Assembly (NCBI GenBank): GCA_947626655.1
Contig: CANQTA010000009.1
Coordinates: 1-39,795 of the forward strand
Length of the DNA: 39,795 nucleotides
Direction: 5' to 3'
DNA from: an uncultured Bacilli bacterium
GTDB taxonomy: Bacteria > Bacillota_I > Bacilli_A > RF39 > UBA660
Part shown: piece by piece, positions 18,069-39,795 of the stretch
Layout: every line of letters begins with the position of its first letter
How positions within the stretch are numbered: the stretch's first letter is position 1
Notes under the pieces: model-generated
Database searches by the model: none
The model's input: only the letters and a program-made list of their open reading frames with translations
What the model was told of the DNA's origin: nothing
Position numbers and translations under genes: made by a program

Positions 18069-18437
18069 TTATTCTATCATTACATTTTTGATAAACTTAT
18101 TAACTTTAGTTATAATCAAGTTAATATGTGAAACATCTAAAGTAACATTATAAGATTTAATTAATCTTTGTATTGATATTGTTCTAATTTGATCCAATAA
18201 TGCAATTGAATCAGTTTTATCAATATAAATTAAATTTTGATATTTTAACTCATTATGATTACGATTTTTAAATGCTTCAATGTTTTTAAAATGTTTTTCT
18301 TTTGGACTTGTAAGAGGTATGCAAAATACCATATTCTTTACTTTAGGAATAGTAAATATTATACCTAAATGTATATTATTTATTTCTGAACCTCTATTTC
18401 CTTTAAAATTTATATAATATATTTCTCCATTTTTCAT
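18069..18437 (-). CDS. Putative type III toxin-antitoxin toxin (ToxN/CptN-like, PemK fold)
   Basis: A 122-aa protein with the PemK/MazF/ToxN-like pattern. GEIYYINFKG is the first strand; GSEINNIHLGIIFTIP and MVFCIPLTSPKEKHFKN follow, the latter strongly recalling the PLTSPK..H segment of ToxN endoribonucleases. Next comes KYQNLIYIDKTDSIALLDQIRTIS, then a C-terminal helix. Known ToxN-class toxins cleave RNA and are held inactive by repeated RNA pseudoknots encoded upstream. Here the upstream region (minus strand) has a promoter, two structured repeats and a terminator before the gene, the type III layout. AGGAGG precedes the ATG at ideal spacing. At 122 residues it is shorter than ToxN (about 170). 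No protein antitoxin gene is adjacent. A plain MazF-like toxin is the alternative. Confidence 0.75.
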   Translation of the reverse strand: MKNGEIYYINFKGNRGSEINNIHLGIIFTIPKVKNMVFCIPLTSPKEKHFKNIEAFKNRNHNELKYQNLIYIDKTDSIALLDQIRTISIQRLIKSYNVTLDVSHINLIITKVNKFIKNVMIE

Positions 18438-36379: not shown

Positions 36380-36408
36380 TTGAAATATAAAGAAATATTG
36401 ATTATAAT
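36380..36408 (+). promoter_or_regulatory. Promoter of GLUG gene 2, part of shared 5' module
   Basis: TTGAAA, a 17-bp spacer and TATAAT. The ~120 bases from about 36340 to 36462 are nearly identical to the region before the third GLUG gene (about 38618-38735), including a doubled GGATGAAGAGGATG start region. Confidence 0.65.
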
Positions 36409-36445: not shown

Positions 36446-36511
36446 ATGAAGAGGATGAAAGCCAAACTAAAATATTTTAGTTTGTTAATACTATTAGTAT
36501 TAACAAACTAA
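36446..36511 (+). pseudogene. Frame-broken original start of GLUG gene 2
   Basis: From ATG 36446 (or 36455, with AGAGG just before it) the frame reads M K R M K A K L K Y F S L L I L L V L T N and stops at TAA 36509-36511. This is the native ribosome site and the first half of a signal peptide. A 41-bp tandem duplication throws the rest of the gene out of frame. Removal of one 41-bp unit would give a continuous signal peptide joined to the GLUG protein. Confidence 0.75.
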
Positions 36512-36545
36512 AATATTTTAGTTTGTTAATACTATTAGTATTAAC
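36464..36545 (+). repeat. Tandem 41-bp palindromic duplication in signal-peptide codons (GLUG gene 2)
   Basis: Two identical 41-bp units, 36464-36504 and 36505-36545. Each consists of a perfect 20-bp palindrome, AAACTAAAATATTTTAGTTT, and a second inverted repeat with arms GTTAATACTA and TAGTATTAAC around a single T. Since 41 is not a multiple of three, the second unit shifts the frame. Confidence 0.95.
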
Positions 36546-38595
36546 AATTATATTATCAAATGTAATATTTTCTAAGAGAGAAAAAGTAATCTTAGATGAA
36601 GTAAAATTAAAAAATATAGTAAATAAAAATATGTTTGCTATGTATTATGAAACTAAGCAAGAAGATGGTACTTATACTTATGTTGAAAGTGCAGATACTG
36701 CTTGGCCAACAAATTTAAGATTTAATGCCAAAATGTCAGGATGTATAGATGGTGATGGCAATAAAATAGAAGAAGAAATATTAACTTATGATGATGAAAC
36801 ACATATAGCTACAGTAGATACAGGAATAACAGCTTATTGTTATTTATATTTTGATTTAGGAACAGAAGATGAACCATATAAAATCCAATATATCGAAGAT
36901 TTAGTAGATTTAAGTAACAAAGTAAATAATGGTGAAACATATGACAGAGTATATTTTACTTTAGAAAGAGATTTAGATTTCAAAAAAGAAAGTAGTTATA
37001 AAAAATATGACAGAACAGATTATGGAGATATTAATGGTGTAGGTGGAACAACAACCTTAATGGATGAATTAACTAATCCCGAAGGAACAGGATTTACACC
37101 AATAGGATATGCAACCGGTTCAGAGAATATATCATTTAATGGAACTTTTGATGGAAATGAAAATACTATTTCAAATTTATATATCAAAAATAATATAGCA
37201 TCCAAAAGTGTTGGTTTATTTGGAAAGATAAGTAATTCAACAATAAAAAATTTAAAATTAACTGGGAATGTAATTACAACTGCAAATGCCAATATGGGAG
37301 GAATAGTAGGAAGAGTATATGGAGATAGTACAATTCAAAATATAGAAGGAACAGTAAATATGGAAAGTGAAGTAACAACAGGATCAACAGGAGGGATAAT
37401 AGGATCAACATCAGATGCTAATGGTACCTATATACTAAAAGATTTAATAAATCGAGGTTCAATAACAGAAGGCAGAAATAATGGAGGCATAATAGGTTGG
37501 GTTATGGATAAAAAAATGACAATAGAAAATTGTCAAAATTATGGAACCATAAAAAATGGAGAAAGAGTGGGAGGAATAGTTGGAGGAACAGACAATTCTT
37601 CTATTCTTGTAGAAATAAACAATTCACACAATTATGGTCAAATAAAGATAGAAAATAATGAATCAACAAATGTCGCTTATATAGGAGGTTTAATGGGGCT
37701 TATGGTTGGTACTCTTACAATAGAAGAAAGTTCAAATGAAATAGAAAAAACAAATGAAAGCGAAGGAATAATAATTATTTCAACTGGATCGAAGAGAGTT
37801 TATGCCGGAGGATTAGTAGGAAGAGCACAAAATTACTCTATGCTTACAATAGAAAATAGTTATAATACCAGTGATATAAAAGGAGGAACTCATGTAGGGG
37901 GTATATTAGGAGAAAGTACTGTTGCTAAGTTAATTATGAATAAATGTTATAATACTGGTAATTTAATTCTTAGTGAAATTGGTTTTTCAGCAGGATTAAT
38001 TTTTGGAGGATTATCTTCTGGATTTTGGGATAGTCAAAACGTTTATATAATAAACTCTTATAATACTGGAAATATAATTAGAAATAATATAAATAATAGT
38101 ATACGTGATATAGGACTTATAGGTTTTATAAATAATGATACTGGAACTAATTCTACTAAATCATATGTAATAAATTCATATAATTTAGGACATTTATCTT
38201 CAAATAATTTTTCATCTGGTATAGCAGACGTCATTTCTTCTTGTAATATAACAATAAATAATGTTTACAATTTAGGAAATTTAGAAGGTACGACTAAATA
38301 TGGAATATTAAGATCTACAACTACAGGAACAGTAGATGTAAAAAATGCATATTATTTAACCGGAGTAAACGGAAGTAATGTTTCATCTAATGGCTCAAAT
38401 TTATCAATAGATACAAAAAGTATGAATGAAAATGAAATAAAATCACAAATTTTTGTAGATACATTAAATAGTAATATAAATAATATTGATTTAGGAAGTA
38501 TAGATTCAGAATTAAGTAATTATAAATTAGAACAATGGATATTAGGAAGTGGAGGTTATCCAACACTTAACTATAACTTAGAAGGTAATGAGTAA
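36523..38595 (+). CDS. GLUG-repeat surface protein 2 (frame separated from its native start)
   Basis: A 690-aa frame opening with a TTG inside the duplicated unit; there is no ribosome site for this TTG, so as assembled the gene is probably not expressed. Residues 1-13 are the end of a signal peptide (LILLVLTIILSN). A ~100-residue N-terminal region with two cysteine pairs follows, then the GLUG lead-in EPYKIQYIEDLVDLSNKVN..YDRVYFTLERDLDF, then seven or more GLUG repeats (GGIVGR, GGIIGS, GGIIGW, GGIVGG, GGLMGL, GGLVGR, GGILGE). The end, YPTLNYNLEGNE, matches the paralogue at the window start. No sortase or membrane anchor is seen. With one 41-bp unit removed it would be a normal secreted protein of about 715 residues. 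Confidence 0.8.
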   Translation: MLILLVLTIILSNVIFSKREKVILDEVKLKNIVNKNMFAMYYETKQEDGTYTYVESADTAWPTNLRFNAKMSGCIDGDGNKIEEEILTYDDETHIATVDTGITAYCYLYFDLGTEDEPYKIQYIEDLVDLSNKVNNGETYDRVYFTLERDLDFKKESSYKKYDRTDYGDINGVGGTTTLMDELTNPEGTGFTPIGYATGSENISFNGTFDGNENTISNLYIKNNIASKSVGLFGKISNSTIKNLKLTGNVITTANANMGGIVGRVYGDSTIQNIEGTVNMESEVTTGSTGGIIGSTSDANGTYILKDLINRGSITEGRNNGGIIGWVMDKKMTIENCQNYGTIKNGERVGGIVGGTDNSSILVEINNSHNYGQIKIENNESTNVAYIGGLMGLMVGTLTIEESSNEIEKTNESEGIIIISTGSKRVYAGGLVGRAQNYSMLTIENSYNTSDIKGGTHVGGILGESTVAKLIMNKCYNTGNLILSEIGFSAGLIFGGLSSGFWDSQNVYIINSYNTGNIIRNNINNSIRDIGLIGFINNDTGTNSTKSYVINSYNLGHLSSNNFSSGIADVISSCNITINNVYNLGNLEGTTKYGILRSTTTGTVDVKNAYYLTGVNGSNVSSNGSNLSIDTKSMNENEIKSQIFVDTLNSNINNIDLGSIDSELSNYKLEQWILGSGGYPTLNYNLEGNE

Positions 38596-38650: not shown

Positions 38651-38679
38651 TTGAAATATAAACGAATATTGATTATAAT
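38651..38679 (+). promoter_or_regulatory. Promoter of GLUG gene 3, shared 5' module
   Basis: TTGAAA, a 17-bp spacer and TATAAT, identical in layout and almost in sequence to the promoter at 36380. Confidence 0.65.
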
Positions 38680-38718: not shown

Positions 38719-38784
38719 ATGAAGAGGATGAAAACCAAACTAAAATATTTTAGTTTGTTGATACTAATAGTATCAACAAACTAA
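38719..38784 (+). pseudogene. Frame-broken original start of GLUG gene 3
   Basis: From ATG 38719 or 38728 the frame gives M K R M K T K L K Y F S L L I L I V S T N and ends at TAA 38782-38784, because of a second 41-bp duplication. The layout is the same as at 36446. Confidence 0.75.
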
Positions 38785-38818
38785 AATATTTTAGTTTGTT
38801 GATACTATTAGTATCAAC
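38737..38818 (+). repeat. Tandem 41-bp palindromic duplication in signal-peptide codons (GLUG gene 3), centre base inverted
   Basis: Units are 38737-38777 and 38778-38818. The 20-bp palindrome is the same as in gene 2. The second inverted repeat has arms GTTGATACTA and TAGTATCAAC. Its centre base is A in the first unit and T in the second, so the first unit's segment is the exact reverse complement of the second's. Compared with gene 2 both arms changed together (A to G and T to C). Confidence 0.95.
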
Positions 38819-39795
38819 AATAATAATACTTATACCCAATAATAATAGTGATGTATTTGCAGTTAAAGAAGAAAGACTAAACAATAAAATAAATAGGAAA
38901 CTGTTTGCCATGTATGTGGGGAAAGATGGAGTGTATGAAGAGTATAATGAAGATCATTTTCCTGAAAGATTGAAATATCTATATAATGAATCTAAAAGTT
39001 ATTGTGTTGATAGTAATAATGAAAAGATAGATCATACCAGTATAGTCAGAGTAAATGAAGACAATAGTATAACCGTAACAAGTGATAAAACCGTCTTTTG
39101 TACTTTTTACTTTGATTTAGATGAAAAGATTCCCGATATTAAAACTTTTGCAATAAATGAAAATAAAGAATATACTACAACAAAAGAAGCACCTCTTAGT
39201 ATAACAAGTGATGATGAAGATATAGTAAGTTATTGTATAACTACTGAAGATGATGCATTAACATGTGAAAATTGGATAGAAGTAGATAATAGTACCAATA
39301 TTGATGGAACATATAATTTTAAAGATGAGGGTAAATATACTTTATATGCTTTCATAAAAGATAAAGCCGGAAATATATCAGCAAGTAGAAACATGAGTAC
39401 AACAGTAGATACTATCCCACCAGAGATAAAGATAAAAAATAGTAAAGTCCAAAATGTCAGTTTAAGACAAGAAACAAATGAAATAATAATAGATAGTGAT
39501 GCCATTGAAACTGGAAGTGGAATAGATAAATGGTGTTATAAGATAAGTCCAGATAGTGATTATACATGCAAAGATAGTACTGAATTAACATATGAAGTAA
39601 TATTTAGTAAAGGAAATAGTAAAGCTACTTATACAATAAATATGTATGCAGTAGATAAAGTTGGACATATAAGTAATGAAATAACAGAGACCGTAACAGT
39701 AACAGAAATAGGAACAGAAACCAATCCATATCGGATATATTATATTGAAGATTTAGTAGAGTTAAGTAATAATGTCAATAAAGGAACAACATATG
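38796..39795 (+). CDS. GLUG-family surface protein 3, N-terminal part (runs off window)
   Basis: The frame opens in the second 41-bp unit (TTG at 38796) and stays open to the window end. After a signal-peptide end (LLILLVSTIIILIP) come a ~90-residue domain like the start of GLUG protein 2 (KLFAMYV..DGVYEEYN, with Cys pairs) and then two Ig-like or Big-type modules: ITSDDEDIVSYCITTEDD...GTYNFKDEGKYTLYAFIKDKAGNIS and VDTIPPEIKIKNSK...YTINMYAVDKVGHIS. The GLUG lead-in TNPYRIYYIEDLVELSNNVN then begins. The Ig-like modules are absent from gene 2, so family members differ by insertions. As assembled it lacks an in-frame start with a ribosome site. Confidence 0.75.
   Translation, partial: MLILLVSTIIILIPNNNSDVFAVKEERLNNKINRKLFAMYVGKDGVYEEYNEDHFPERLKYLYNESKSYCVDSNNEKIDHTSIVRVNEDNSITVTSDKTVFCTFYFDLDEKIPDIKTFAINENKEYTTTKEAPLSITSDDEDIVSYCITTEDDALTCENWIEVDNSTNIDGTYNFKDEGKYTLYAFIKDKAGNISASRNMSTTVDTIPPEIKIKNSKVQNVSLRQETNEIIIDSDAIETGSGIDKWCYKISPDSDYTCKDSTELTYEVIFSKGNSKATYTINMYAVDKVGHISNEITETVTVTEIGTETNPYRIYYIEDLVELSNNVNKGTTY

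Follow-up and report, generated by a model that had tools for sequence, protein, structure and literature searches.

Results

The stretch of DNA analysed here, referred to as the window (39,795 nucleotides), is contig C9 of the genome of an uncultured gut bacterium of the Bacilli that comprises 84 contigs (1.48 Mb). Toward its end, the window carries two successive surface-protein genes, each with a doubled 41-bp unit within its first codons (Table 1). For the first of these, a gene with the GLUG motif, an earlier note had claimed a palindromic 41-bp tandem duplication inside the signal-peptide codons, and both the duplication and its palindromic nature were borne out: TRF reports a period of 41 bp with 2.1 copies and a 100% match at 36463-36547, and the unit consists of a perfect 22-bp palindrome with no spacer (P1, CAAACTAAAATATTTTAGTTTG) followed by a 19-bp palindrome with one central base (P2, TTAATACTATTAGTATTAA). 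With 44 bases repeated at period 41, this array holds the window's longest exact direct run, compared with 10-13 bases at periods 35-47 in ten Markov sequences of the same composition, and palindrome arms reach up to 33 bp in the window versus 9-11 bp by chance.

Downstream of ATG 36455, the array codes for the hydrophobic core of a signal peptide. The frame from this ATG reads MKAKLKYFSLLILLVLTN and ends at TAA 36509 after 18 codons, or after 21 codons when counted from the in-frame ATG 36446, close to the figure of about 20 codons given previously. Read in the frame of the second unit, the sequence stays open as far as 38595 (696 codons). We considered TTG 36523 as an internal start in this closed state; it is in frame with the gene, but no ribosome site was seen before it, and the candidate was rejected. 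A noncoding RNA was likewise rejected, the hairpins yielding only sub-threshold, miRNA-type matches in Rfam. The next gene has a 41-bp doublet of its own (38736-38820), which was missed in the earlier note, and is also closed after 18 codons. Elsewhere in the window, a gene for a PemK/MazF-like toxin is located on the minus strand (18069-18437).

Table 1. Features of the two surface-gene loci, in window coordinates
Feature	Position	Strand	Basis or remark
Likely promoter TTGAAA-17-TATAAT, GLUG gene	36380..36408	+	Consensus scan 11/12; block recurs upstream of next gene
Truncated frame, two-unit (OFF) state, 18 codons	36455..36511	+	Stop TAA 36509-36511; also in-frame ATG 36446
Unit 1, GLUG gene	36463..36503	+	22-bp palindrome 36463-36484 and 19-bp palindrome 36485-36503, centre T
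Unit 2, GLUG gene	36504..36544	+	22-bp palindrome 36504-36525 and 19-bp palindrome 36526-36544, centre T
Surface-protein open frame (GLUG motif), out of frame with ATG	36505..38595	+	696 codons; Pfam Glug PF07581, E 1.1e-6
Likely promoter TTGAAA-17-TATAAT, next gene	38651..38679	+	Sequence; copy of 36380-36408
Truncated frame, next gene, 18 codons then TAA	38728..38784	+	Sequence
Unit 1, next gene	38736..38776	+	19-bp palindrome TTGATACTA-A-TAGTATCAA
Unit 2, next gene	38777..38817	+	Arms as in unit 1, centre T
Open frame, next surface protein (bacterial Ig-like)	38778..39794	+	Runs off contig

A DNA search of the same genome with the unit gave 80 matches, which, when all were read, placed the unit at the start of ~33 surface genes. 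The unit, whose length is not a multiple of three, sits after codon 2-3, always directly following the start codon of a surface gene, with flanks that are homologous within each family. We also considered a MITE or REP-type mobile palindrome and rejected it: such an element would insert into unrelated contexts, but the unit is confined to surface-gene starts.

Two main groups of loci were recognized. In family A, the frame passes directly into GLUG or Ig-like surface proteins. In family B, a leader precedes a DUF285/BspA-like protein (~800 residues at L031:5146; Pfam DUF285 E 1e-80 for one member). The one-unit leader at L031:5146 has 32 residues and ends in an ATGA that overlaps the start of the DUF285/BspA-like gene, and the two-unit leaders of this family stop after 18 amino acids, short of the downstream start. 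The ATGA overlap points to possible translational coupling of the leader and the DUF285 gene, and the closed state of family B may be leaky, the main gene having its own start. A weak, variable hairpin (CCAAGA..TCTTGG) lies before the downstream start of family B and is not kept in all loci. A third, small group (contigs C1, C30, C42, C44 and C60) has a different P1.

The assembly runs through 27 arrays, 23 with two units and four with one; pieces of further arrays lie at contig ends (six promoter halves and six gene halves). The frame is open in all four one-unit arrays; in the two-unit arrays it is closed after 18 residues at 21 of 23 loci and after 24 at the other two (L021 and L035). Among paralogues in the same genome, four with different starts (L148, L149, L151 and L152) have no such palindrome, two (L150 and L153) have P2 only, and no tandem copy was found in any of L148-L153. 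The paralogues of families A and B that are devoid of the unit (L148-L153 and L157-L167) have other promoters, and several of them adjoin an upstream stretch that, by eye, resembles on the other strand the start of a small helix-turn-helix regulator, which suggests a second, repressor-type control of these genes.

The genes behind two units are intact. Wherever the downstream sequence is complete, the frame is open (364-959 codons), and by the Nei-Gojobori method, dN/dS among two-unit paralogues is 0.14 across 21 pairs of family B (about 219 codons) and 0.41 across 10 pairs of family A (130 codons), with a value of 0.16 between one-unit and two-unit members of family B. The closed genes are under purifying selection. 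Most assembled-through loci being closed, the second unit might be taken for an old inactivating duplication that left a set of fixed dead genes; the complete downstream frames, all open, the dN/dS values well below 1 and the coexistence of one-unit loci in the same families make this extremely unlikely. In place of the fixed, decayed two-unit gene that the earlier note had envisaged as evidence against a switch, we thus find two-unit genes without decay.

Further information on the unit number comes from the way in which the assembly breaks. In three pairs of contigs the overlap is exactly 77 bp, and therefore the k of the assembly graph was 77. The promoter-side contigs that end within an array all (9/9) stop exactly where the one-unit and two-unit alleles diverge, and their terminal bases, CAA in family A, CAAA in family B and CAATA in the third group, correspond to the stretch common to the one-unit and two-unit continuations. 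On the gene side, four of six contigs begin where the alleles rejoin, on the initial base of P1, and two begin one base inside. A difference between two and three units would not branch at the base where the promoter-side contigs end. Three identical units should appear as a cycle in a 77-mer assembly, and the resolved contigs contained no such cycle, though three-unit alleles may still occur. Because the contigs end at the divergence base, the reads at many loci probably included one-unit as well as two-unit versions; thus, judging from assembly topology, the sampled population probably contained both alleles of one locus. The same assembly graph could possibly also arise from a mixture of strains or from PCR slippage at the palindromes.

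The earlier note had named an assembly error around palindromes as the main alternative. Short-read assembly does break in these repeats and palindromes are error-prone, so that the second unit might have been created by the library or by k-mer loops. Against such an artefact, the doublets occur at 23 loci that differ in their flanks and in unit type, and one-unit loci assemble equally well. Furthermore, eight arrays have two non-identical units (five with A/T centres and three with edge differences), which excludes a simple repeat error at these eight. We therefore consider an artefact very unlikely.

The unit varies widely in sequence. P1 occurs in at least four variants (CAAACTAAAATATTTTAGTTTG, CAAACAAAAGTACTTTTGTTTG, CAATAACAGATATCTGTTATTG and CAATAAAAGATATCTTTTATTG) and P2 in three arm types, the central base being T, A or G, and the layout of 22 + 19 = 41 bp is kept in every unit sequence. 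Across ten distinct units, all 200 of 200 cells are paired, with eight pairs carrying changes in both partners and no pair a change in just one, compared with 32-55% paired when the structure was slid by 1-3 columns. Some of the changes alter signal-peptide amino acids, for example, Leu to Pro or Ser, and hence the arm changes are not explained by codon constraint. Folding of a single unit gives two hairpins that abut directly, no base separating them (z -5.4 and -6.6). What is conserved in the unit is its structure, not its sequence.

Genes of families A and B are present in all 37 other genomes of the genus, and the palindromic unit is absent from all 37. Weak DNA matches in the relatives were dismissed as AT-rich chance matches, and an exact-pattern search of genome and viral contig collections, which may omit near records, did not find the unit. 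The closest named relatives by UvrC are metagenome-assembled uncultured Bacilli, mostly of the rabbit-gut 'Lapin' series, with SPAdes-style NODE contigs. Of the 38 genomes in the genus, 26 carry a TTGAC..G7+ promoter motif, often dozens of times over; the unit-bearing genome lacks it. In the loci inspected, the motif lies upstream of family A and B genes. Thus, the genus appears to phase-vary this repertoire by poly-G promoters, and the present species appears to do so differently. In congeners without the poly-G motif (G019, G050, G044 and G013), no palindromic arrays were found at 20 gene starts.

The surface-gene promoters of the sister species (e.g., L089, L091, L093, L103 and L168-L183) have 7-9 G between the TTGAC box and the -10 region, and sister-species contigs often end at such promoters. 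The motif distribution predicts a large poly-G phasome in 26 of 38 genomes of this uncultured genus. One poly-G-controlled sister-species gene (L184, G017:C76) carries a single copy of a 29-bp palindrome in its signal-peptide codons, possibly a forerunner of the unit.

Discussion

Because the second unit shifts the frame and stops translation, the unit number sets the state of the gene. With one unit, the frame continues into the gene (family A) or through a 32-residue leader to the ATGA overlap (family B), the ON state; a second unit adds 41 bp and shifts the frame, so that a stop is reached after 18 codons, or after 24 at two loci, the OFF state. The best reading is frame-based phase variation of ~33 surface genes by the number of 41-bp units, to which we assign a probability of roughly 0.8. 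Phase variation by gain or loss of a unit had been proposed for the GLUG gene, and this proposal is supported and extends further than was envisaged, to ~33 loci with open one-unit frames beside closed two-unit frames. We infer that gain and loss are reversible. The class of the switch, frame-shifting phase variation by repeat number, is ordinary; the device is unusual.

How the unit is gained and lost is a separate question, and we give about even odds to fold-back hairpin template switching as the engine. On the way from one unit to two, the nascent strand would fold back at a palindrome, copy itself and realign one unit off; on the way back, the extra unit would be removed by slippage or recombination between the direct copies, aided by hairpins. 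Since the unit folds wholly into two adjoining hairpins, an extra copy can loop out with no bases left unpaired. Each of the 23 doublets has the P1 core and P2 arms of its own locus in both units, and the duplication is therefore local and repeated. Template switching at inverted repeats is known to leave two marks, homogenized arms and an inverted spacer (PMC8604942). The central bases of P2 in units 1 and 2 are T/T in nine arrays, A/A in eight, G/G in one and A/T in five, with the arms unchanged, and the occurrence of T and A between the same arms is suggestive of the spacer inversion expected from template switching; the difference between five A/T arrays and no T/A array is not significant. 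In addition, at three loci (L022, L035 and L047), a first P1 with an imperfect left edge (ACAAC..) is followed by a perfect second one (CAAAC..), as though the right arm had served as template; this is suggestive of self-templated fold-back rather than plain slippage. The imperfect first P1 could also reflect later decay, and two of the three loci may share ancestry.

In another version of the same switch, the 41-bp direct repeats might gain and lose units through slipped-strand mispairing of the ordinary kind or through homologous recombination, with the palindromes incidental or only mildly stimulating. Direct repeats of at least 41 bp suffice for deletion, and the copy number of long tandem repeats varies (PMC12817950), which counts in favor of this route. 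We nevertheless regard it as rather unlikely: it leaves unexplained both the palindromy kept through complete sequence changes and the frequent duplication of lone units that have no more than 3-5 bp of repeat at their flanks, and simple slippage at L022, L035 and L047 would predict a period of 40 bp, not the observed 41 bp.

A site-specific recombinase acting on the palindromes by inversion or deletion, as in surface loci of Mycoplasma and Ureaplasma, would be another candidate, given that the genome encodes ten tyrosine recombinases and one serine recombinase, and that mycoplasma surface loci invert at short inverted repeats, some through a flexible recombinase (PMC3047005). The core sequence, however, is wholly different between loci, and no recombinase is encoded in the window, the nearest lying ~18 kb away on the contigs checked, which renders this alternative improbable. 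Inversion as such cannot switch the gene, because an inverted palindromic stretch differs only in its central base and leaves the frame unchanged. The genome also encodes one IS200-type (Y1) transposase (L313, G000:C64:3085-3441), of a class that acts on hairpins, for which no link to the units was seen.

Returning to fold-back template switching, it is an evenly balanced proposition that the switching unit is a self-templating double palindrome, in which fold-back would make and erase the extra unit and keep the arms complementary while the sequence drifts, and that this module has spread to two unrelated surface-protein families in one species.

In general class, the switch comes closest to repeat-number contingency loci such as the Opa genes of Neisseria, which contain simple repeats in signal-peptide or early codons and in which reversible changes in repeat number shift the frame. 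The loci described here resemble Opa-type loci in that they are surface genes, numerous in one genome and intact when off, and differ in their unit, which is 41 bp long, present in one or two copies, fully palindromic and conserved in structure. For family B, the leader-peptide switch of Streptococcus gallolyticus Pil1/Pil3 can be regarded as the nearest published analogue: there, too, the repeat number sets the extent of leader translation and thereby the expression of the downstream surface gene, but the GCAGA repeats act via a transcription terminator (PMC3894217), in contrast to the 41-bp doublet and ATGA overlap found here. The inversion loci of Ureaplasma and Mycoplasma similarly have short inverted repeats within the 5' portion of the coding sequence in families of surface genes (PMC3047005), and DUF285 proteins also occur in mycoplasmas; here, however, inversion is silent and it is the unit number that changes. 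Mutation by template switching at quasipalindromes shares the homogenized arms and the inverted spacer base but is recognized as a cause of point mutations and mutation clusters (PMC8604942; PMC7202029). In the open-access literature, we found no description of template switching as the engine of a phase-variation system, and a 2025 review of phase variation makes no mention of palindromes, hairpins or tandem duplication. The poly-G promoters of the sister species concern the same gene families, presumably for the same purpose, but rely on a promoter-spacing homopolymer, whereas the present device is a palindromic unit in the coding frame.

To conclude, this unit would escape standard searches aimed at homopolymers, microsatellites or inversions. 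Sister species appear to use different mutational devices on the same surface repertoire, which makes the evolution of such devices open to comparison. The unit also makes it possible to ask, in a natural setting, whether template switching driven by palindromes, a process generally regarded as damage, was adopted as a programmed switch.
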